Below, one piece after another: positions 5,490-16,795 of a stretch of DNA of 64,000 nt (position 1 is the first letter of the stretch; each line of letters starts with the position of its first letter). This DNA comes from Chloroflexota bacterium (GTDB taxonomy: Bacteria > Chloroflexota > Anaerolineae > Aggregatilineales > Aggregatilineaceae): NCBI GenBank assembly GCA_012729765.1, contig JAAYCM010000063.1:1-64000 (forward strand). The letters run 5' to 3'. The notes under the pieces were generated by a model that was not told where the DNA came from, did no database searches, and saw nothing but the letters and a program-made list of their open reading frames with translations. The position numbers were made by a program, and so were the translations under genes.

Positions 5490-5563
5490 CATTCAGGCAA
5501 CGTGCTCACGTCAGGACAGGTGATAACAACGCCAGGAGCGAGTGGCTTAGCCAGGGGAAAAGG

Positions 5564-5659
5564 CGGGAGTGTATGGGAGTCGAACCCACCGCGGCCCGCG
5601 CTGTGCGACCCGCCGCCGATTTTGAAGACCGGGAAGCCCACCGGGACTCAGACACCCCC
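5564..5659 (-). tRNA. selC: tRNA-Sec (anticodon UCA)
   Basis: A 96-nt gene that folds as a bacterial selenocysteine tRNA. The acceptor stem has 8 bp (GGGGGTGT with ACACTCCC, one G-U). The D arm is long (GAGTCC / GGCTTC). The anticodon stem CCGGT / ATCGG closes a CTTCAAA loop, giving anticodon UCA. A long GC-rich variable arm precedes the T arm GTGGG-TTCGACT-CCCAT. The 8+5 bp acceptor/T stack is the family hallmark. The discriminator is G and the 3' CCA is not encoded (CCT follows). It lies 65 bases downstream of selB on the same strand, so selA-selB-selC form one locus. Confidence 0.95.
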
Positions 5660-5724: not shown

Positions 5725-7599
5725 TTACAGCAGTCGCTCCCACTTGCCCGAACCCAGCACCCGCTCGTCGCCCTTGCGCCGCGTGATGCCGAGCGCGTCC
5801 AGCCGTTCGAGGAAGTCGAGCGCGTAGCGGCGCGTCGTCTGGAAGTGATCGCGCAGCGCCGCGACGGTGAGAGCTTCGCCGCGTTCCAGCGTCGCGCGCG
5901 CATAGTCGATCCACACGCGCAGCACGTCGCGGGTCAGGATCACCTCGTCGCTGATGCGCACCAGGTCGCCGCGCTCGATCAGCCCGGCCAGCAGCGCATC
6001 CCCCACCAGCTCGCGCGCCTGCGACACGGTCGGCGGGGTGTGCGGCGTGCGCTCGAACGCCTGCCACAGCCGGCGCAGCGCGTCTTCCTGGGTGGCGCTG
6101 TAGCGCAGCGAATGTTCCGGCAGGCGCAGCAGGCCGCCGCTCTCGACCGCCAGCGATCCTTCAGCGGCTAGCAGCCCCAACACCACTTCGAAGGTGTCCG
6201 GCTCCAGGCGCAGGCGGCTGCGCAGGGCGTCACGCGGCAGACCGACGCGCAGCGGTTCCGCCGCGTGGAAGTTCGCCAAAATGCGCGCCGCTTTCTGCCG
6301 CAGCCGATCCAGGCTCGCGGCGTGAATCAGCCAGCCATTGCCCGTCGCCAGCAGCGTCCCATCCTGCCGGGCATCGTCCAACCGGGCCGGATCGATCTCC
6401 AGCGTTTCGATGCGGAGCGGGCCGCGCGCCTGGGCCAGATGTTGCAGCGCCAGAGTCAGCGGATCGCCTTCTAGCAGGGCGGCGAAACGTTCCGCGATTT
6501 CGGGGCGGAAGCGCTTCCAACGCCGGCCCGGCGCCGGATCGAGCACGATCCCACCGCCGATTGTTTCGGGCGGCGACGCGCGGCGCAGGATGTAACGGTC
6601 GCTGCTGGCCGCCACGAGCGGCTGCTCCAGCCGGAGCTGAATCCAGCTTTCCTCGCCGGGGAGCACCTGTTCACGATCCAGCACGCGCACGCGCCCCGGC
6701 ACCTCAGCCGCCCCGATGAATACCTTGACCGGGTCATCGTGCGCCAGCGGGAGATGGGCGGCGGGCAGATAGCGCAGCCAGGCATCGATCAGCGTGGTGG
6801 GGTGCCAGGTGTCCGGCAAACCGAGCACGTCCCCGCGCGCCAGATCGCTTTTCTCCACGCCGCGCAGATTGACCGCCACGCGCCGCCCCGGCCCGACCGA
6901 TTCGACGCTTTCCTCGTGCGACTGCAAGCCCCGGATGCGCGCCCGCACCCCGGCGGGCTGGATTTCGACTTCCTGCCCCACCGCCAGCGCGCCATCGAGC
7001 AGCGTGCCGGTCACGACCACGCCGAACCCGCTGATCGTAAAAATGCGATCGATGGGCAGGCGCGGGCGGCCCGTGTCGCGGCGGGGCGGCTGCTGCGCGA
7101 GCATCTCCATGATCGCCTCGCGCAGGTGATCCATCCCTTCGCCGGTGCGCGCCGAAACCGGGATGATCGGCTGGTTTTCCAGCACGGTCCCCTGCACGGC
7201 GTCCAGGATGTCGAGCTGCACCAGTTCCAACCAGGCCGGATCGTCCACCAGGTCGATTTTGGTCAGCGCGATCAGCCCGGTCGGTACGCCGAGCAGATCG
7301 AGAATGGCGAGGTGCTCGCGCGTCTGCGGCATCACGCCCTCGTCGGCGGCGATAACCAGGATCGCGGCGTCGATCCCGCCCACCCCGGCCAGCATATTCT
7401 CGATGAAGTCGCGGTGCCCCGGCACGTCCACGATCCCGACACGCTCGCCGTTGGGCAGGTCCAGCCACGCGAAGCCGAGATCAATCGTCATCTCGCGCTG
7501 CTGCTCTTCGGCCAGCCGGTCGGGATTGATCCCGGTCAGGGCCAGTGTCAGCGTCGATTTGCCATGATCGACATGTCCGGCGGTTCCGATTACGTGCAT
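5725..7599 (-). CDS. selB: Selenocysteine-specific translation elongation factor SelB
   Basis: SelB brings Sec-tRNA(Sec) to ribosomes at UGA codons marked by a SECIS hairpin. This 624-aa protein starts with the G1 motif GHVDHGKS (residues 8-15), then DVPGH (G3) and TKID (G4), two EF-Tu-like beta-barrel domains, and a C-terminal part made of winged-helix repeats; the end (TTRRYALDFLERLDALGITRRKGDERVL) is the typical last winged helix that contacts SECIS RNA. Length fits the family. The gene lies 3 bases after selA and just before the tRNA-Sec gene. Confidence 0.97.
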   Translation of the reverse strand: MHVIGTAGHVDHGKSTLTLALTGINPDRLAEEQQREMTIDLGFAWLDLPNGERVGIVDVPGHRDFIENMLAGVGGIDAAILVIAADEGVMPQTREHLAILDLLGVPTGLIALTKIDLVDDPAWLELVQLDILDAVQGTVLENQPIIPVSARTGEGMDHLREAIMEMLAQQPPRRDTGRPRLPIDRIFTISGFGVVVTGTLLDGALAVGQEVEIQPAGVRARIRGLQSHEESVESVGPGRRVAVNLRGVEKSDLARGDVLGLPDTWHPTTLIDAWLRYLPAAHLPLAHDDPVKVFIGAAEVPGRVRVLDREQVLPGEESWIQLRLEQPLVAASSDRYILRRASPPETIGGGIVLDPAPGRRWKRFRPEIAERFAALLEGDPLTLALQHLAQARGPLRIETLEIDPARLDDARQDGTLLATGNGWLIHAASLDRLRQKAARILANFHAAEPLRVGLPRDALRSRLRLEPDTFEVVLGLLAAEGSLAVESGGLLRLPEHSLRYSATQEDALRRLWQAFERTPHTPPTVSQARELVGDALLAGLIERGDLVRISDEVILTRDVLRVWIDYARATLERGEALTVAALRDHFQTTRRYALDFLERLDALGITRRKGDERVLGSGKWERLL

Positions 7600-7602
7600 G
7601 GT

Positions 7603-8937
7603 CTACAACTCTTTCAGGGCGGCCAGCAGCATCTCGTCCTGGCCGGGGAGCACGGTACGCGGGTCGAGCAGCAGGCGGTCGTGCGCCACGCGTGCGATGA
7701 TCGGCGGATCGTATTGGCGCAGCCGGGCTGCTGCCGCGTTGGGCTGATCGACGTGGAGGGCGAGCGCCCAGGTGGGCAGCGTCTCGCCCGGCAGGCTGCC
7801 GCCGCCGATGGTGGATTCGGACGCGACGACCTCGCCGCCAACGGCCTGTGCCCAGGCTTCGGCGCGGGCGCGAATCGCGTCTGGCGGGGTGCTGATCATG
7901 CGCCACACCGGCACTTTATCCAGCGCCTCGCCCCGGCGGTAATGGTCGAGTGTGGCGCTCAGCGCGGCGAAGGTCAGCTTGTCGGCGCGGATAGCGCGCG
8001 CCAGCGGGTGACGTTTCAGCCGCTCGACCAGGTCGGCCCGCCCGACGATGATCCCCGCCTGCGGCCCGCCGAGCAGCTTGTCACCGCTGAACAGCACGAG
8101 ATCGGCCCCCGCGCTGAGGCTTTCCTGTACGGTTGGCTCGCTCGCCAGCCCGAACGCCGCCGTATCGATCAGCGCGCCGCTGCCGATGTCGTCCAGTACG
8201 ATCAGATCGCGGGCGTGCGCCAGCGCGGCCAGATCGGCCAGCGGGGCCGCTTCGGTGAAGCCGACGATCCTGAAGTTCGAAGCGTGGGCGCGCACGATCA
8301 CGGCGGTCTGCTCGGTGATGGCGGCGGCGTAGTCGCTGAGGCGGGTGCGGTTGGTCGTCCCGACCTCGACCATGTGCGCGCCGCTTTGGGCCATCACATC
8401 CGGGATGCGGAACGCGCCGCCGATCTCGATCAGTTGGCCCCGGCTGATGATCGCCGCGCGGCCCTGCGCCAGCGCGGTCAGGGCCAGCAGCACCGCCGCC
8501 GCGTTGTTATTGACGACCAGCGCCGCCTCGGCCCCTGTGACCTCGGCCAGGATGCGCGCGCAGTGCTCGTCACGGTAGCCGCGTGTGCCCGGCTCCAGAT
8601 CGTATTCGAGCGTGCTGTAGCCGCCGCCGACCGCCTGGATCGCCGCCAGTGCCTCGTTGGAGAGTGGCGCGCGGCCCAGGTTGGTATGGATGATCACGCC
8701 GGTCGCGTTGATCACCGGGCGCAGCGTGGGCCGGGAGTCGGCGGCCAGCAGGTGCGCGGTCTGGGCGATCAGCGCGGCCTCAGCCGGGACCGGATCGCCG
8801 TGTAGCGCCGCCTGGCGCGCCCCGTCCACCACCTGGCGCAGCGCGCGCACGGTTCGTTCATGCCCATACTGCGCCACCAGTGGATCGCAGGCGCGCAGCA
8901 GTGTATCAATAGCGGGAAGGTTTCGCAGGGATGTCAT
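7603..8937 (-). CDS. selA: L-seryl-tRNA(Sec) selenium transferase
   Basis: A PLP enzyme (444 aa) that converts Ser-tRNA(Sec) to Sec-tRNA(Sec) using selenophosphate. The N-terminal helical domain is followed by VINATGVIIHTNLGRAPL (from about residue 75), the conserved SelA segment, and the PLP lysine K287 in FSGDKLLGGPQAG. Length matches bacterial SelA. A perfect TATAAT lies 6 bases before the ATG, so the transcript may be leaderless; read-through from the NrfD gene 101 bases upstream is also possible. The selenophosphate synthetase gene selD is not in this window. Confidence 0.97.
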   Translation of the reverse strand: MTSLRNLPAIDTLLRACDPLVAQYGHERTVRALRQVVDGARQAALHGDPVPAEAALIAQTAHLLAADSRPTLRPVINATGVIIHTNLGRAPLSNEALAAIQAVGGGYSTLEYDLEPGTRGYRDEHCARILAEVTGAEAALVVNNNAAAVLLALTALAQGRAAIISRGQLIEIGGAFRIPDVMAQSGAHMVEVGTTNRTRLSDYAAAITEQTAVIVRAHASNFRIVGFTEAAPLADLAALAHARDLIVLDDIGSGALIDTAAFGLASEPTVQESLSAGADLVLFSGDKLLGGPQAGIIVGRADLVERLKRHPLARAIRADKLTFAALSATLDHYRRGEALDKVPVWRMISTPPDAIRARAEAWAQAVGGEVVASESTIGGGSLPGETLPTWALALHVDQPNAAAARLRQYDPPIIARVAHDRLLLDPRTVLPGQDEMLLAALKEL

Positions 8938-9038: not shown

Positions 9039-10271
9039 CTAGTGATGGGCATCATCTTTCGGGAACAGCGGCAGATAGCGCAGCCCCAGGGTGAGCATCA
9101 GCAGCGCGTAGCCCAGCACGCCGAGCGCAACGCCCCATTCGGGCGCGGTCGGCGTGTACTTCTGCACCGCGAACAACTCGGCGGCTCCCGGCGACCAGTC
9201 CATCGGCACCACCAGCCCGGAGAGCGTCACGTTCCAGCGGTTGACGATGATCCCTGCCATCGCCAGCAGCGCCGCGAGTACCAGCCAGATATCCTGGCGG
9301 CGCAGGCGCGGCGTGAGCAGGATAATCGCCGGGACGAGCGCACCCAGGATGATCTCGATCCACCAGAAGGTGACACCATAGGGTGTTGTGCTTTCGAGCA
9401 GGGTGCTGTCGTTGGCGCGGGCGGGCAGGTGGCTGTAGTAGCTCGTCGCCAGGAAATCCCACAGCTTGAGATAGAGATAGGCGAGCATCATCAGGCCGGC
9501 GAACGCCGCCAGCAGATTGCGCAGCCGGGTGTTGATCTGCCGCTCGCGCACGAGGTTTTCATAGAACACCGTCAGGCCGAGTGTCACGGTGGCCCCCGCC
9601 GCGACCGCCGAGAGGATGAACAGCACCGGCAGCGACGGCTTGAACCACAGCGGGCGCGCTACCAGCACGCCGTAGGTCGCGCCCAGCGAGGATTGGTGCA
9701 GCAGCGACAGCCCCAGCCCGACGACCGACACGACCGGCGTGAAGCGGTGCAGGAAGTGCGCCAGCTTCGGCCCACGTGGGAAGCGCTGCACGACGATCCG
9801 GCTTTCGAGCACCGCCGGGGCCAGCTCGAAGACCAGCACCATCGAGTAGAACACGACGCACATCGTGATTTCCCACAGCACCGAGTGGACATTCCAGAAG
9901 ACCATCGGGTGCCAGAAGCGGTCCGGGCGCCCGATGTCCATCACCAGCGCCAGCATGGCCGAAGTATAGCCGACGAAGCCGACAAATACGGCGATGCGCG
10001 CGATGGGCGCGAACGACTTCACGCGGAAGATGTAGACGATGGTCGAGAGCGAGAACGCCCCCGCGCCGAGTGCGATCGCGGACAGATCGACCGTGATCCA
10101 CAGGCCCCAGGGCACCGTGTTCGACAGGTTGGTCACGTCCAGCCCGACCCACAAGACCCGCGCCGCCGATATCAGCCCGACGACCAGCAGACTAAGCAGG
10201 AAGATGATCCAGGCGCTAAAGATGGGTGCGGTCTGAGCCTGCCGCCGCAGCGTGCCAATCATCGTGGTCAT
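9039..10271 (-). CDS. NrfD/PsrC-type quinone-interacting membrane subunit
   Basis: A polytopic membrane protein of 410 aa with about nine or ten hydrophobic segments, matching the NrfD/PsrC family that exchanges electrons between the quinone pool and a partner ferredoxin-like subunit. Recognisable regions include VPWGLWITVDLSAIALGAGAF near the N-terminus and SLLHQSSLGATYG in the middle, as in polysulfide reductase/DmsC-like and Hmc-type complexes. Its ATG overlaps the TGA of the iron-sulfur gene by 4 bases, so the two are translationally coupled. No molybdopterin subunit is nearby, which separates it from ordinary Psr/Phs operons. Confidence 0.88.
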   Translation of the reverse strand: MTTMIGTLRRQAQTAPIFSAWIIFLLSLLVVGLISAARVLWVGLDVTNLSNTVPWGLWITVDLSAIALGAGAFSLSTIVYIFRVKSFAPIARIAVFVGFVGYTSAMLALVMDIGRPDRFWHPMVFWNVHSVLWEITMCVVFYSMVLVFELAPAVLESRIVVQRFPRGPKLAHFLHRFTPVVSVVGLGLSLLHQSSLGATYGVLVARPLWFKPSLPVLFILSAVAAGATVTLGLTVFYENLVRERQINTRLRNLLAAFAGLMMLAYLYLKLWDFLATSYYSHLPARANDSTLLESTTPYGVTFWWIEIILGALVPAIILLTPRLRRQDIWLVLAALLAMAGIIVNRWNVTLSGLVVPMDWSPGAAELFAVQKYTPTAPEWGVALGVLGYALLMLTLGLRYLPLFPKDDAHH

Positions 10272-11098
10272 AGCGCCATCCCCTCAGGCGGAACATAGTA
10301 GACGTTTGGCTCGGTGCCCAGGTCTTCGCGCAGGCGGAAGGTCGGCAGCGATTTGATCGCCTGTGACACCGGGCTTGCCGGATCGTTCAGATCGCCGAAG
10401 ATGCGCGCCTGCACCGGGCAGATATTGACGCAGGCCGGGGTCGCGGGCCGGTCCACACCGGGAACAAGACCCTGCGCCAGCCCGCGATCGATGCGGTGGA
10501 TGCAGAAGGTGCACTTCTCGGCCACGCCGCGCGGGCGACGCTCGACCTCGGCATTGCCCCATTCAGGCTGGTAGCCGCTCGCGCCCTCGCGCGCCTTCCA
10601 ATTGAAGCTGCGCGCGTCGTAGGGGCAGGCGACCTGGCAGTAGCGGCAGCCGATGCACAGGTCGTAGTCCATGATGATCAGCCCGTCGTCGCGGCGGTAG
10701 GTCGCCTGGGCCGGGCAGACCGAGACGCACGGCGCGTCGTTGCAGTGCAGGCAGGGGCGCGTCATATGGAACGGCTCGCCGGTCTGGGTGACTTCGGGCA
10801 GATAGACGTTCCAGCGCATATCGTCCGGCACGTCGTTGACTGCCTGGCAGGCATAGACGCAGTACTGGCAGCCGATGCACGTGCGCAGGTCGATCAGCAT
10901 CCCCCAGCGGTGCCGGGCGTCGCCGCTCTGCGCGGCGGCCTCGCGCGCGACTTCGGGCAGCTCCAGCTTCAGCTCGCGGGCGATCAGCTCTTGCAGCGGC
11001 TCGATCTCGCTCAGGGCCAGCGCGACGGCCAGGCTGCCCCCGGCGGCGGTTACAACCGTGATGAACTCACGGCGGGTCAGGAATCGTTCCTCAGCCAT
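10268..11098 (-). CDS. Four-cluster 4Fe-4S ferredoxin-type electron-transfer subunit
   Basis: A 276-aa subunit of the DmsB/PsrB/HybA class. Four cysteine groups for [4Fe-4S] clusters are visible: CIGCQYCVYAC, CLHCNDAPCVSVCP, CIGCRYCQVACP and CTFC...CVNICP. The N-terminus (FLTRREFITVVTAAGGSLAVALA) looks like a Tat signal with a single arginine pair (RR) and a hydrophobic stretch, so the protein probably acts outside the cytoplasmic membrane. I start at the ATG at 11098, 8 bases after the octaheme cytochrome. It should relay electrons between the NrfD subunit and the cytochrome. Confidence 0.9.
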   Translation of the reverse strand: MAEERFLTRREFITVVTAAGGSLAVALALSEIEPLQELIARELKLELPEVAREAAAQSGDARHRWGMLIDLRTCIGCQYCVYACQAVNDVPDDMRWNVYLPEVTQTGEPFHMTRPCLHCNDAPCVSVCPAQATYRRDDGLIIMDYDLCIGCRYCQVACPYDARSFNWKAREGASGYQPEWGNAEVERRPRGVAEKCTFCIHRIDRGLAQGLVPGVDRPATPACVNICPVQARIFGDLNDPASPVSQAIKSLPTFRLREDLGTEPNVYYVPPEGMAL

Positions 11099-11105
11099 GA
11101 CGCCT

Positions 11106-12131
11106 CTACTCGGTTTTCTCGTGGATCGTGCCGGTTGTGCTGCGGCGGAAACGCGCCACGCCAAAGACCACCACGCCGCCGATCACCACACCGACGATCA
11201 ACCCCTGCACCAGTCGCAGCGCGGAGTTATTCGCGCCCTGGGCCTTAACCGTATCGACTTCGCCTTGCAGCTCTTCGATGCGCACGCGTGCTTCGAGCAG
11301 CGGCTGCGTGTTGGATGACAGGTTCATCGCCGCCAGCGCCTCGTCGCGCTCTTCCAACACGGTCGTTTCGGTCAGCTCTTCGTGGCAGGCGACACACGAC
11401 TGGGTCTCGACCTTGCCGGTGTGCCCGGTCGGAAAGAGATCGCCGCTGACGAAATGGGCCTGCAAATCTTCGGCCTTGCCCTCGAACCAGTGACAGTCCA
11501 CGCAGTTCTCGTCGGGGTGGACCATATGCGTGTAATCGTCGCGCGGCTCTTCGTTGTGGCAGTTCAGGCACAATTCGTTGGCGGTGCCAAAGCGCAGCGT
11601 CTGTGGGTGGGGCTGGTGGCAGGTCGTGCAGGCAAGCTGCTGCTCGCCGTGCAGGCTGTGCTGCCATTCGTTGTAGGTCGTGGTATGGCAGCCGGCACAG
11701 ACTTCGACGCCGGGGTCAACCTTGACGGCTTCCGGGGGGTGGCTTGATAGTGTCTGCCCATGACACGCTTCGCAGGTTACGCCCTCGTGCGCATATTCGC
11801 CGGTGTTGGCGACAAAGCCGGTCGTATGGCAGGCGAGACACCTGGTCTGGCTGCCCTGCGCCTGCCAGGCTTCCTGAAAGATCGGATCGCTGTAGGCCTT
11901 GGCGTGTATCCCTTCCTGCCATGCGCTGACCACGTCCAGATGGCACTCGGCGCAGCCCTGGCTGGAGAAAACCGGCGTGCTGGTTGGCCCGGCTGTCCCC
12001 TCTGGATCGGGCGTCGCCGTCGGGCCGCTCTGAGCCGGTCCACCTGCTTCGGCCAGCAGCGCGCCGGTGACTCCACAGCAAATGATGATCAGGACGTACA
12101 AAAGGTAACGCGATATGGAAGAGTAGGACAT
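11106..12131 (-). CDS. Octaheme membrane-anchored cytochrome c
   Basis: A 341-aa exported cytochrome with eight CXXCH heme sites in order: CAECH, CLACH, CEACH, CAGCH, CTTCH, CLNCH, CVDCH and CVACH. An N-terminal hydrophobic signal/anchor is followed by a Thr/Pro-rich linker; after the heme domain comes a short coiled-coil-like segment (LLEARVRIEELQGEVDTVKAQ region) and a C-terminal membrane helix with a basic end. The start is two bases after the LysR stop codon, with AAGGA upstream, so the regulator and cytochrome are co-transcribed. It probably connects the NrfD/ferredoxin module to extracytoplasmic partners; its reaction partner is not known. Confidence 0.9.
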   Translation of the reverse strand: MSYSSISRYLLYVLIIICCGVTGALLAEAGGPAQSGPTATPDPEGTAGPTSTPVFSSQGCAECHLDVVSAWQEGIHAKAYSDPIFQEAWQAQGSQTRCLACHTTGFVANTGEYAHEGVTCEACHGQTLSSHPPEAVKVDPGVEVCAGCHTTTYNEWQHSLHGEQQLACTTCHQPHPQTLRFGTANELCLNCHNEEPRDDYTHMVHPDENCVDCHWFEGKAEDLQAHFVSGDLFPTGHTGKVETQSCVACHEELTETTVLEERDEALAAMNLSSNTQPLLEARVRIEELQGEVDTVKAQGANNSALRLVQGLIVGVVIGGVVVFGVARFRRSTTGTIHEKTE

Positions 12132-12133
12132 AC

Positions 12134-13063
12134 CTAAGATTCCTTGTTAAAAACAGGCCGCAAGTCCCGGTTTTCGGGCGCAAAGGTAAAGTCCCAGAAG
12201 CAGGTCTGGGTTTCGGTGGCATGGAACTCGGTATGGCGTGCCATGTAGAGCTTCTGGATCAAATGCAGGCCCTCGACCGGCACTTCAATCAGCTTGCCCT
12301 GCTGTAAACCCCATTCCGCCGCAAGCTGCGACACGAAGGCCGGGCCAATGCCTTCGATCACCGCCTGGACGATCGATTCGGTGTTGCACAGCACAACCTG
12401 GACTTGCAGCATCTCGACGCTCATATCGTGGGCCGCCAGCTCGCGGTTGAGCGTGATAACCGTGCCGGAGCGGGCTTCGCGCAAGATGATCGGGCACTCC
12501 AGCAGCATTTCGAGCGAAATGTGATCGCGGCTGGCCCAGGGATGATCGGGCGGGGCAACCAGGATGATCAGGTCGTCGGCGAAGTGACGGTACTCGATCC
12601 CGCTGCGCGGCACGCGCAGGCTGCTCACCGCCAGATCGACCTCGCCGTTGGTCAGCTGATCGAGCGCCATCTCGCGCGGGCCGACGTGGCACAGCGTGCG
12701 CACTTCCGGATACTGCTGCAAGAAACGCGCCATGATCCGGGGCAGGATGTATTTGCCCGACGCCGTGCTGCACCCCAGCGTGACGGAGCCGGTCAGGCTG
12801 CCCTGCCGCGCCGCAACAAACTGCTCGGCCTGCTGCGCTTCTTTCAGCAGGTTGCGCACCACTGGCACAAACGCCTCGCCCATCTCGTTGAGCTTGATAT
12901 TCCGCCCGATCCGGTCGAACAGGCGCGTGTCGAGGTGCTGCTCCAGCGCCTGGATATGCGCGCTGACCGCCGGCTGCGAGATCTGAAGCCGGCGGCCTGC
13001 TTCGGAGAAATTCTCCGTTTCGGCTGCCACAAGAAATACCTGCAATTCATGCAGATCGAGCAT
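12134..13063 (-). CDS. LysR-family transcriptional regulator
   Basis: A 309-aa DNA-binding regulator with an N-terminal winged HTH (LHELQVFLVAAETENFSEA then ISQPAVSAHIQALE) and a C-terminal periplasmic-binding-fold sensor domain (from VTLGCSTASGKYILPRIM). The pattern is closest to CbbR/CysB-like LysR proteins. I start at the ATG at 13063; an in-frame ATG at 13138 would add 25 residues lacking similarity. It heads the minus-strand operon (octaheme cytochrome, FeS, NrfD, then selAB) and is divergent from the 11-heme cytochrome/rhodanese operon, so it probably controls both from the shared intergenic region. Confidence 0.92.
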   Translation of the reverse strand: MLDLHELQVFLVAAETENFSEAGRRLQISQPAVSAHIQALEQHLDTRLFDRIGRNIKLNEMGEAFVPVVRNLLKEAQQAEQFVAARQGSLTGSVTLGCSTASGKYILPRIMARFLQQYPEVRTLCHVGPREMALDQLTNGEVDLAVSSLRVPRSGIEYRHFADDLIILVAPPDHPWASRDHISLEMLLECPIILREARSGTVITLNRELAAHDMSVEMLQVQVVLCNTESIVQAVIEGIGPAFVSQLAAEWGLQQGKLIEVPVEGLHLIQKLYMARHTEFHATETQTCFWDFTFAPENRDLRPVFNKES

Positions 13064-13221
13064 CGCTGTGCGCTTTCTCACCTGGCACGGAATTGACGCG
13101 CTCGGCGGCGATATGAAAGATTGCGTCTCCTTGTTCATATCAGATTTCGCGCACCAGGGAAACAGCCAAACGTCATAAGAAAACCGGATAGATGTTAGTA
13201 CCTTCTATCACAATCTTCGAT

Positions 13222-13270: not shown

Positions 13271-15004
13271 ATGCTGACACAAAGAATGAAGTTTTGGCCG
13301 ATCCTGCTCTTAGGGAGTCTGTTTTTGCTCACCGGCGTGCTGACCGGCTGCGCGCCCGACACCTCGGCTCCCGAACTCCAGCCCCGGCAGACCGAAGTCG
13401 CGCTGGCCAGCGATCCGGTCGAGGACGGCGGCGCGGACGCGCTGGTGTCTGACGACGCGGGGGCGCTGGCGGCTGATATCCCGCCCTTCGTAGACTTCGC
13501 CTGCCTGGAATGCCATACCGATCAGGCGCGGCTGCTGGAGCTGGCCGTCGAAGAGGAGGAAACCGAGAGCCTGTCCGAAGGTCCTGGCTGAGGTGGCTCT
13601 GTGCCTCCGGTGGAGGCCTGGGAGAAAGTCTGGATCGACCCGGAAGGGTATCCTGCTGACATTCACGCGTTCATCAACTGCACGGCCTGTCATGGCGGCG
13701 ACCCGGTGGATGATATGGAAGCGGCGCATACCGATTTGATCGCCGATCCGTCGTCCAGCCCGGAGAGCGGCTGCGCGACCTGCCATCCCAACGTCGTGCC
13801 GCATGCCGTGAGCAGCCTGCATAATACGCTGGCCGGTTATGACACGGTCCTCTATGATCGCAGCGCGCCCGAACACTACGAGACGCTGGAAGAGATGCAG
13901 GTTTATCACTGCAACGATTGTCACGCCTCGTGCGGTGACTGCCATATCAGCCAGCCGGGATCGGTGGGCGGCGGCCTGCTCGACGGCCATATGTTTGTGC
14001 CGCAGCCGCCCATGAGCCGCACCTGCACGGGCTGTCACGGCAGCCGCGTGAAGAACGAATACTACGGGCTGAATGAAGGCATCCCCGGCGACGTGCACCT
14101 GCGCGAGGCGCGCCTAGCCTGCACCGACTGTCATACCTCGGTTGAGATGCACGGTGAGGGCGCGTTTAGCGAGGTGGCACACCGCTACGAAGGCCCCAAC
14201 GAGCCGAGTTGCATCGGGTGTCACGAAGATCAGGTCGGCGTTGGATCGGGTATTCCGGAGCATGAGATTCACGGCACGGAGATTCTCTCGTGCCAGGTGT
14301 GCCACAGCACCAGCTATACCAACTGCACCAACTGCCATGTCGAGCGCACGGAAGACGATGTGCCCTTCTACTCGATTGAGGAACACTCGATCGGCTTCTA
14401 CCTGGGCAAGAATACTCTCCGCAGCGCCGAGCGTCCCTACCGTTACGTCCCGGTGCGGCATGTCCCGATTGATCCGGACTCGTTCAGCTTCTACGGCGAG
14501 GACCTGCTGCCCAACTTCCTCAACCGGCCCACCTGGACCTATGCCACGCCGCATAACATCCAGCGCAACACGCCGCAGACCGAAAGCTGCACGGCCTGTC
14601 ACGACAACGACGCGGTTTTCCTGACGCCGGATAAGGTCGAGGAATTCGAGCGCGGCGGGGCCAACCTGGATGTGATCGTGGACGGCGCGCCGCCGTTCCC
14701 CGAAGGCTACGAGTCCTATCTTGAAGACGACGCGGCGGGCACCGAAGCGGAAACGCCGGCGGAGTCTGGCGGCGGGACGGGTACGGGTGGTGACGACGAC
14801 TTCTGGGGCAGTGACAGCGCACCTGCCGAGTCCGAGGATGCAGGCAGTGACGATGACTTCTGGGGCAGTGATAGCGCCCCTGCCGGGACCGATGATGCGG
14901 GCGGAAGTGATGATGACTTCTGGGGCAGCGACAGCGCCCCTGCTGAGACTGACGACGCAGGCGGCAGCGACGAGGATTTCTGGGGCAGCGACGGTCTGTC
15001 GTAG
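13271..15004 (+). CDS. 11-heme lipoprotein cytochrome c with predicted selenocysteine (TGA at 13589-13591)
   Basis: Read through one in-frame TGA, this is a 577-aa exported protein. It starts at an ATG preceded by GGAGA, has a lipoprotein signal with lipobox LTGC, then one heme site (CLECH, C78). The TGA is codon 107 in the context EGPG-U-GGSVPP. Ten more CXXCH sites follow: CTACH, CATCH, CNDCH, CGDCH, CTGCH, CTDCH, CIGCH, CQVCH, CTNCH and CTACH. The C-terminus has four acidic DFWGSD repeats. The part after TGA has no signal peptide, though its hemes must be attached outside the cytoplasm; this argues for read-through. A SECIS-like hairpin follows the TGA, and selA, selB and selC lie 4-8 kb away. 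Alternatives: reinitiation at GTG 13601, or a nonsense mutation. Confidence 0.82.
13603..13617 (+). promoter_or_regulatory. Predicted bacterial SECIS hairpin
   Basis: GCCTCC and GGAGGC form a perfect 6-bp stem closed by the loop GGT (13609-13611). The loop begins 17 bases after the TGA, close to the 18 bases between the UGA and the GGU loop in the E. coli fdhF SECIS. A GG or GU in the apical loop is the known SelB contact. An outer CTC/GAG pairing across an internal loop could extend the stem. It is inside the coding sequence, as bacterial SECIS elements are. Confidence 0.65.
14792..14997 (+). repeat. Four tandem DFWGSD-coding repeats
   Basis: Four units coding for D-D/E-D-FWGSD plus an Ala/Glu/Pro-rich spacer. 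The TTC of the Phe codon falls at 14801, 14858, 14918 and 14978, giving periods of 57, 60 and 60 bases. They form the acidic C-terminal tail of the 11-heme cytochrome. Confidence 0.85.
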
Positions 15005-15124: not shown

Positions 15125-16795
15125 ATGCGGAAGCACCTTTATCTGTTGCTTGTCCTGGCCCTGGCTCTACCGCTCGCGCTACCGTTCGCGCCGGCGCTGG
15201 CCCAGGAAGGCTCCTCGGCGGTTCAGACCCGTCTCGAAGAATACAATGCCAATCTGCCCGCTGGCTATGGCAATATCAGCCCGGTTGATCTCTCGGTCGA
15301 GCTGATCGACAACCCCGATCTGACCATCGTGGACGTGCGCCAACCCGACGAGTATGAAGGCGGCCACATTCCCGGCGCGATCAATATCCCGCTGCGTGAG
15401 CTGGCTCAGAGCCTGGACCTGCTGCCCGATCTGGACGCCCCGATTGTCGTGGTGTGCGGCTCGGCTTTTCGCTCGCCGATTGGCATGACCTCGCTGCAAA
15501 TTTTGGGCTACACCAATGTCCGCAATATGAGCGGCGGCATGAAGGGCTGGGAAGCGGAAGAACTGTCCCTGAGCACCGATCCGGTCGAAGTCGAAGCGGG
15601 TACCGCGCCGGAATTCGATCCTGAGGTGTTCGCGGCGGTTGACGCGGCGCTGGTCAACATCCCTGAGGGCTGGGGCGCGGTCAAGGCCGAAGACCTCAAT
15701 GTTCAGTTGATCGAGACACCCCCGGCGATGCTGGTGGACGTTCGCTCGGCTGAAGAGTGGGCCAAGGGCTACATCCCCGGCGCGGTGCACATGCCGATTA
15801 CCGAGTTGATGAGCCACATCGCGGAGTTGCCGCAGGACAAGGCCGCCGATATCGTGATCTACTGCGCGGTTGGGCACCGGGGCAACATGGCCGCGACGAT
15901 GCTGCGCGTCCTGGGCTACACCAACATCCGCAACCTGTCGGGCGGTATCGGCGCGTGGACGACCGCCGGTTATGCGCTGGAAGGCGCTGCCCCGGTTGAA
16001 GAAGCCGCCGCCGAAGAGCTTGATCTGGCTGCCGTCTTCACCGACTACATCGCGGGCCTGCCCAACAGCTTCAACGCGATGCGCCCGAACGATCTCGCCG
16101 CCGAGCTGGTCGAGAATCCGGAACTGCTGCTGGTCGATGTCCGCACCACCGACGAATTTGTCGAGGGACACATCGAAGGCGCGCTCAATATCCCGATCAC
16201 CGAACTGACCGATCATCTCGATATGCTGCCCGACCTTGAGCAGAACATGGTGATCTACTGCGGCAGCGGTCATCGTTCGGCGATCGCGATGACGCTGTTC
16301 AACGTGCTCGGCTACACCAACGCGCGCAACATGCTTGGCGGTGTCGGCGCGTGGAAGGCGGCGGAACTGCCGCTGGTTACCGAAGAAGCCGCGTTTGAAG
16401 CCGGCACGGCTCCCGCGATCGACCCGGCGCTGCTGGCGGCGGTCGATGCCTACGTGAAAGCGATCCCGGCGGGCTACTACGCCACCAGCGCCGATAATCT
16501 CAACGTGGCGCTCGTCGAAAATCCGCCCATCCTGATCGATGTCCGCACGCCGAGCGAGGTAGAGCAGGGCATCATCGAGGGCGCGACCGTGATCGAGCTG
16601 CGCAATTTCATGGGCAGCATGGATCAGTGGCCTGAGGATAAGGCCGCCCCGATCGTGCTCTACTGCGGCAGCGATCACCGCGCTGTGATTGCGATGGTTG
16701 CGATGCAGATGCTCGGCTACGAAAACGTTACGACGCTGGGCGGTGGCCTGCAGGTCTGGCTGGCGAAGGAATATCCGGTCGTCCCGGCCCAGTAA
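15125..16795 (+). CDS. Secreted four-domain rhodanese (sulfurtransferase)
   Basis: A 556-aa exported protein with a classical signal peptide ending near APALAQ and four tandem rhodanese domains of about 135 residues each. All four keep the active-site cysteine: C111 (CGSAFRS), C247 (CAVGHRG), C379 (CGSGHRS) and C514 (CGSDHRA). Each domain also has the DVR and GHIPGAINIP-like motifs. Rhodaneses carry sulfane sulfur as a persulfide. The start at 15125 has GGAGG nine bases upstream. It is 120 bases after the 11-heme cytochrome with no terminator between them, so the two are probably one operon and this protein may deliver or receive sulfur for the cytochrome system. Confidence 0.93.
   Translation: MRKHLYLLLVLALALPLALPFAPALAQEGSSAVQTRLEEYNANLPAGYGNISPVDLSVELIDNPDLTIVDVRQPDEYEGGHIPGAINIPLRELAQSLDLLPDLDAPIVVVCGSAFRSPIGMTSLQILGYTNVRNMSGGMKGWEAEELSLSTDPVEVEAGTAPEFDPEVFAAVDAALVNIPEGWGAVKAEDLNVQLIETPPAMLVDVRSAEEWAKGYIPGAVHMPITELMSHIAELPQDKAADIVIYCAVGHRGNMAATMLRVLGYTNIRNLSGGIGAWTTAGYALEGAAPVEEAAAEELDLAAVFTDYIAGLPNSFNAMRPNDLAAELVENPELLLVDVRTTDEFVEGHIEGALNIPITELTDHLDMLPDLEQNMVIYCGSGHRSAIAMTLFNVLGYTNARNMLGGVGAWKAAELPLVTEEAAFEAGTAPAIDPALLAAVDAYVKAIPAGYYATSADNLNVALVENPPILIDVRTPSEVEQGIIEGATVIELRNFMGSMDQWPEDKAAPIVLYCGSDHRAVIAMVAMQMLGYENVTTLGGGLQVWLAKEYPVVPAQ

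Follow-up and report, generated by a model that had tools for sequence, protein, structure and literature searches.

A predicted selenocysteine-containing 11-heme cytochrome family of Chloroflexota, encoded across an in-frame TGA and associated with rhodaneses

ExtKL of Geobacter, a 5-heme protein that was followed with an antibody, has been proposed to be a multiheme cytochrome containing selenocysteine (Sec) (PMC5877670, in the accessible part of its text). Two cytochrome selenoproteins, ExtKL (NF040886) and an octaheme form (TIGR04315), appear in the accessible part of a 2026 review whose table covers 119 selenoprotein families and subfamilies (PMC13188914). The original prediction for the locus described here had assumed that no Sec-containing multiheme cytochrome was known, and this assumption is overturned by these two precedents. 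The 11-heme family reported below was not found in the table of the same review (section 7, parts 1 and 2 of 3; PMC13188914), and a literature search over the titles and abstract starts of open-licence PMC papers returned no description of it. Among sulfur carriers, binding of sulfur by the glycine-flanked cysteine of SoxY (GGCGG) is established (PMC6067878, accessible part).

The window, a 64,000-nucleotide stretch of a contig from a Chloroflexota bacterium, contains on its forward strand a single reading frame of 577 codons (13271-15001), which is closed by a TAG (15002-15004) and whose sole internal stop is a TGA at 13589-13591. This matches exactly the earlier observation of two open stretches in one frame split only by that codon. 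When the gene (13271..15004, +) is read through, the TGA corresponds to residue 107 of a 577-residue product, in the context GPG-U-GGS. As had also been predicted, a lipoprotein-type signal and one CXXCH motif precede the TGA and ten CXXCH motifs follow it, making 11 in the joined product; the signal (LLTGVLTGC, with the lipobox LTGC; 13271..13354, +) was judged by eye. The joined protein has Pfam matches to Cytochrome_C7 and class III cytochromes, and exceeds the cut-off of no NCBIfam model. Its C-terminal tail is repetitive, acidic and of low complexity (14790..14992, +), with a 60-bp tandem repeat coding for DDDFWGSDSAPAE; the C ends of several close homologs are FWG-containing acidic tails of variable length. 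The cytochrome gene was detected once when the genome to which the window belongs was searched. On sequence evidence, we conclude that the product of this gene is almost certainly a single exported 11-heme cytochrome and that its UGA 13589 would be decoded as Sec by SelB, tRNA-Sec and a downstream hairpin.

A structural model of the full-length protein built from 23 sequences was poor (pLDDT 55.9). A second model, based on 88 of the 89 distinct homologs and a trimmed core of 409 residues (13469-14695), had a pLDDT of 94.1 and a pTM of 0.90. The Sec region in this model has a pLDDT of about 86-87, and therefore no disordered Sec arm is seen. In a Foldseek comparison of the second model with the PDB, all 106 matches up to E 10 were worse than E 0.001, and the best match of a sequence profile was 28pb (E 1e-6).

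A contig scan revealed 11 matches, including ten close relatives, all ten of which have TGA at the same codon; one of these, L006, additionally has a frameshift at some distance ahead of the TGA. The eleventh match (L012) is a distant cytochrome. Family matches were found in 13 of 400 Chloroflexota genomes searched, and the phylum to which L012 belongs (titled Acidobacteria) yielded one in 149 genomes. Among 396 genomes of the window's class, 76 contained a family match at E 1e-40. For codon analysis, we used a set of 90 homologs, the window included, defined as profile matches above 200 bits on fetched loci that cover the Sec column; the partial matches L111 and L112 stop short of this column and lie outside the set. 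TGA occupies the column in 83 of the 90 sequences (82 of 89 without L035, which probably repeats L003), and the protein is conserved in frame on both sides of it. Since the same column carries TGA in so many members, most of them from other assemblies, a sequencing error or a chance TGA was ruled out.

The remaining seven codons comprise one TGT, encoding Cys in L065 (motif GGGCGA), which is the sole Cys ortholog found, and six others: TGG in L077, TTG in L066, CAC in L067, TTT in the second copy of L068, and GTG in L109 and L110. These six are members with Sec replaced or lost. Both genus-mates of L077 (L069 and L072) carry TGA, and the genome of L068 (G781) has one TGA copy and one non-TGA copy. 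The search for homologs with Cys or Sec at position 107, by which the original prediction was to be checked, thus gave one Cys ortholog besides the TGA members. Against the prediction would have spoken a codon that proved to be TGC or TGG; the column is TGA in the majority of the family, but TGG, one of these two codons, does occur in one homolog. A distant homolog with 13 CXXCH motifs from another Chloroflexota genome (L025) apparently has the whole Sec loop absent, as judged by eye, which suggests either its loss there or an origin of the loop as a discrete insertion. Two other cytochrome ORFs, L070:836-2758 and L068:5772-8216, contain 16 and 21 CXXCH motifs, respectively, and are apparently fusions of the Sec-cytochrome family with a further multiheme cytochrome.

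Directly downstream of the TGA, a SECIS-like hairpin is predicted at 13602..13618 (+), with the stem GCCTCC/GGAGGC (13603-13608 with 13612-13617) and the loop GGT; in the window the outermost pair (13602/13618) is T-C and unpaired. Across the family the hairpin starts 11-12 nt after the TGA and has a GNU loop. In 82 sequences, 94.3% of the cells are paired compared to 85.3% in shuffles, and 33 cells show double changes against 7.1 expected; neither value was reached by any of 500 shuffles, and the pairing is destroyed when the partner strand is slid. Two of the five covariation measures were unexceptional on these sequences: pairs changed on both sides (3 versus 2.1, reached by 113 of 500 shuffles) and further pair types (6 versus 4.4, reached by 42 of 500). 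The pair 42-56 is GC in 55 sequences, GU in 16, CG in 7 and AU in 2, and the pair 43-55 is CG in 60 and GC in 21. On a protein tree built without the hairpin columns, these two pairs underwent at least 10 and at least 5 state changes, respectively. RNAalifold recovered five of the six stem pairs from 23 sequences, and the window hairpin folded as a single sequence was unexceptional (z -0.72).

The hairpin also leaves a trace in codon usage. At the protein level the region reads as VPPLEAW alternating with VAPLEPW, and its synonymous codons are frozen: CCT (59 of 60) and CCG (77 of 77) for the two Pro codons, compared to 9% and 46% elsewhere in the same genes, TTG for Leu (67 of 70 versus 15%) and GAG for Glu (79 of 81 versus 45%). 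Codon bias extends to positions +1, +3, +4 and +9, and codons +11 to +15 are nearer to background. A hairpin of this kind is absent from the Cys ortholog, the stem of the TTG (Leu) member is mismatched, and the TGG member has kept the hairpin.

As the original prediction had noted, genes for Sec incorporation lie close to the cytochrome gene, all on the reverse strand: tRNA-Sec with a TCA anticodon (5562..5659; ARAGORN, and Rfam RF01852 at 65.4 bits with a gathering threshold of 47), selB (5725..7599; TIGR00475, 354.2 bits versus a cut-off of 242.25) and selA (7603..8937; TIGR00474, 558.3 bits versus 267.9). Parts of this set also adjoin the cytochrome gene in L002, L005 and L006. The selD gene of the window's own genome is itself Sec-coded, with an in-frame TGA at 1531 of L113 in a UASK site (AAGUASK), and is a second selenoprotein gene in this genome. 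A tRNA-Sec scoring at least 58 bits was present in five of six Chloroflexota MAGs tested; the sixth (L005) gave 49.4 bits (gathering 47), which is near further hits in other genomes. Matches to selB at E 1e-60 were found in eight of nine genomes tested, the only exception being that of the TTG member L066, whose assembly is 91% complete, and all 12 TGA-bearing genomes from the 400-genome search had a selB match of E 3.3e-89 or better. However, because selB exceeds its cut-off in 307 of the 400 Chloroflexota genomes, its co-occurrence says little and was dropped as evidence for Sec.

Bacterial selenoproteins are recognized by a conserved in-frame UGA within a continuing frame together with Cys homologs, by a stem-loop directly 3' of the UGA, and by SelA, SelB, tRNA-Sec and SelD in the genome. 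The family has the conserved UGA and one Cys homolog, the stem-loop is evident from covariation and frozen codons rather than from the single-sequence fold, and the genome contains the four components. The central claim of the original prediction, a Sec codon in an exported 11-heme cytochrome, is thus supported by the conserved TGA, the hairpin and the Sec machinery.

Downstream of the cytochrome gene, the window encodes a protein with four rhodanese domains (15125..16795, +; PF00581, four stretches) and a signal-like N end, the start codon and signal being assigned by eye. Of the 90 homologs, 74 have a rhodanese: in L023 and L064 it is fused upstream in the same frame, and in 72 more it is encoded on the same strand no farther than 4.5 kb away; the assignment was confirmed with Pfam for L064, L065 and L092. 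By residue, 74 of 84 Sec/Cys members have the rhodanese compared to none of the six others (W/L/H/F/V; Fisher 1.3e-5). Ten of the 16 homologs without it are cut by contig ends, and in the 78 rows left in the tree-based comparison the numbers are 72 of 73 versus none of five, one of these five (L067) having only 1.35 kb to the contig end. Corrected for the tree, the association comprises four independent pairs and is not significant (p = 0.125).

On the other side, reverse-strand genes encode a multiheme cytochrome that has hydrophobic segments at both termini (11106..12131; eight CXXCH by eye), a 4Fe-4S subunit with an uncertain start codon (10268..11164; best match DsrO, 206.2 bits with a cut-off of 200) and an NrfD/QrcD-like membrane subunit (9039..10271; PF03916, with QrcD at 293.8 bits below its cut-off of 570). 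The window, L068 and L070 have both NrfD and 4Fe-4S subunits next to the cytochrome gene, and L064 has a 4Fe-4S subunit there. In L092, their place is taken by a multiheme cytochrome and a b561-type cytochrome b. A divergent LysR regulator (12134..13138, -) matches best the selenium metabolism-associated LysR model NF040786 (213.4 bits, below the cut-off of 250), and LysR homologs occur in nine of the 24 loci compared, many of which are short.

From this arrangement, we tentatively propose a mechanism, plausible on sequence grounds, in which the Sec selenol would handle sulfane sulfur borne by the rhodanese and would be wired through the hemes to or from quinone. The predicted Sec lies between hemes 1 and 2 in the glycine-rich loop GxGU[GA]G, where its selenol could react with sulfane sulfur that the partner rhodanese carries on its cysteines (thiosulfate, polysulfide or persulfide, possibly selenium). 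The resulting Se-S intermediate would be reduced or oxidised through the heme chain, and the further multiheme cytochromes and the 4Fe-4S/NrfD (or cytochrome b561-type) subunits would carry electrons between these hemes and the quinone pool, so that the proposal allows either direction of electron flow. Taken as a whole, Sec decoding combined with this sulfane-sulfur chemistry of rhodanese and hemes is probably the best explanation of the locus. It is possible, if more speculative, that the family represents a new class of respiratory oxidoreductase acting on sulfane sulfur (or selenium), in which an exported multiheme wire would carry a Sec glycine loop loaded by a dedicated polyrhodanese and be linked to quinone through NrfC/NrfD or cytochrome b, widespread in one Chloroflexota class and hidden as two ORFs.

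Selenium has to be considered as a rival substrate because ExtKL, with its proposed Sec, shares a cluster with the rhodanese ExtH and is a candidate for selenite reduction (PMC5877670, accessible part). By analogy, the same Sec cytochrome could be an Ext-like detoxifying or respiratory reductase of selenite or tellurite, with the rhodanese carrying selenium, and both the resemblance of the neighbouring LysR to a selenium-associated model and weak matches to ExtM/N/O (34-36 bits) point in this direction. We nevertheless regard this substrate as unlikely, because the protein has no match to the ExtKL model NF040886, and the LysR and Ext matches are all under their cut-offs.

Catalytic hemes with unusual ligands exist, and the placement of Sec between two heme motifs would also fit a role in ligating a catalytic heme or metal, or as a redox buffer, the rhodanese then being a mere neighbour in a general sulfur-related regulon. 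Against this stand ten invariant His residues outside the CXXCH motifs (23-sequence alignment), which are enough for bis-His ligation of most hemes, as well as the fusion of the rhodanese in two members and its absence from all six W/L/H/F/V members, and such a role appears rather improbable.

If the TGA were a real stop, an N-terminal fragment and a second protein re-initiated at GTG 13601 would be produced. A GAGGTG-like ribosome site is visible by eye ahead of this GTG in the window, and codon 4 after the TGA is start-like in 64 of 82 homologs, but 18 have no start codon at this position and three have none within ten codons. A hydrophobic export segment precedes the TGA in 77 of 82 homologs (lipobox-like in 50 of 82); of the five exceptions, L006 is frameshifted, and L023, L071, L085 and L094 start at or near a contig end. 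In contrast, none of the 82 has an export signal in the first 110 residues after the TGA. Heme is attached outside the cytoplasm, hence the full-length product is required, and the ten hemes of a re-initiated protein would be unattachable. The distribution of export signals bears out the argument made originally that only a read-through product makes sense, and it answers the proviso that homologs might be two proteins, each with its own signal. Given these signals, the missing start codons and the covariation of the hairpin, re-initiation was rejected as highly improbable. Decoding of the UGA as Trp or some other common amino acid, through suppression or a code change, is compatible with L077, which has TGG and keeps the hairpin, but was likewise rejected and has very little chance of being correct, since TGA ends three of the 14 window genes checked and is an ordinary stop here, the genome contains the Sec machinery and a Sec-coded selD, the ortholog L065 has Cys instead of Trp, and TTG sits in the member (L066) whose genome gave no selB match.

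The family adds a candidate to the selenoprotein families of the 2026 review table, in the parts covered here (PMC13188914), and it is common, as seen from the 76 genomes with a match among the 396 searched in the window's class. Gene callers that treat UGA as a stop split the gene, and therefore an 11-heme protein may be overlooked or annotated as a pseudogene. Because Sec, heme wires and a rhodanese are combined in one system, and in two loci the rhodanese is fused in one frame, the family offers a direct test of Sec in extracytoplasmic sulfur or selenium respiration.

With regard to known systems, membership in the ExtKL family was the main suspicion after the literature search and was ruled out by profile scores and by comparison with NF040886-type loci. 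At a model cut-off of 250 bits, the window protein showed no match to NF040886 up to E 10 and its own genome none at E 0.001, and none of the 23 aligned members matched this model at E 0.01. The NF040886-type TGA loci L029-L032 and L034 score 150.9-207.6 bits, all below the cut-off, and contain five CXXCH motifs with Sec in GHR[ILF]PD[TG]UPW after the hemes. L033 is a homolog of this type without TGA, and a YeeE-like membrane protein is encoded upstream in L032 (by eye). The two systems share a multiheme cytochrome with one Sec, clustered with a rhodanese and further multiheme cytochromes. However, the ExtKL type, as seen in the five NF040886-type loci, has five hemes followed by the Sec motif, whereas the window protein has 11 hemes and its predicted Sec is placed between hemes 1 and 2, in GxGU[GA]G.

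The TIGR04315 octaheme cytochrome, which belongs to the tetrathionate reductase family, is similar in that its listed form is a Sec multiheme cytochrome with a possible sulfur substrate, but the window protein has no match to it up to E 10, below its curated cut-off, and two of the 23 members match only weakly (best E 3.2e-5). ExtN (NF040967) and ExtM (NF040943) match weakly after the Sec, with 34.4 and 35.7 bits versus cut-offs of 200 and 800; the ExtN match starts at residue 130, past the Sec loop, and Sec is mentioned for neither protein in the accessible part of PMC5877670. The 4Fe-4S and NrfD subunits adjoining multiheme cytochromes resemble the NrfC-NrfD quinone modules of Qrc, Psr, Hmc and Dsr, but QrcD, HmcC and DsrP remain under their cut-offs, DsrO is just over it, and no molybdoenzyme was present among the cluster genes scanned. 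The likeness to SoxY is an analogy only, in that a glycine-flanked chalcogenol is proposed as a sulfur carrier; the SoxY motif is C-terminal and contains Cys, whereas that of the window protein is internal (residue 107 of 577), contains the predicted Sec and is not a C-terminal GGCGG. Thus, although Sec multiheme cytochromes have precedents, the predicted 11-heme proteins, absent from the sources examined, are on comparative evidence a real and conserved selenoprotein family with a new Sec site.
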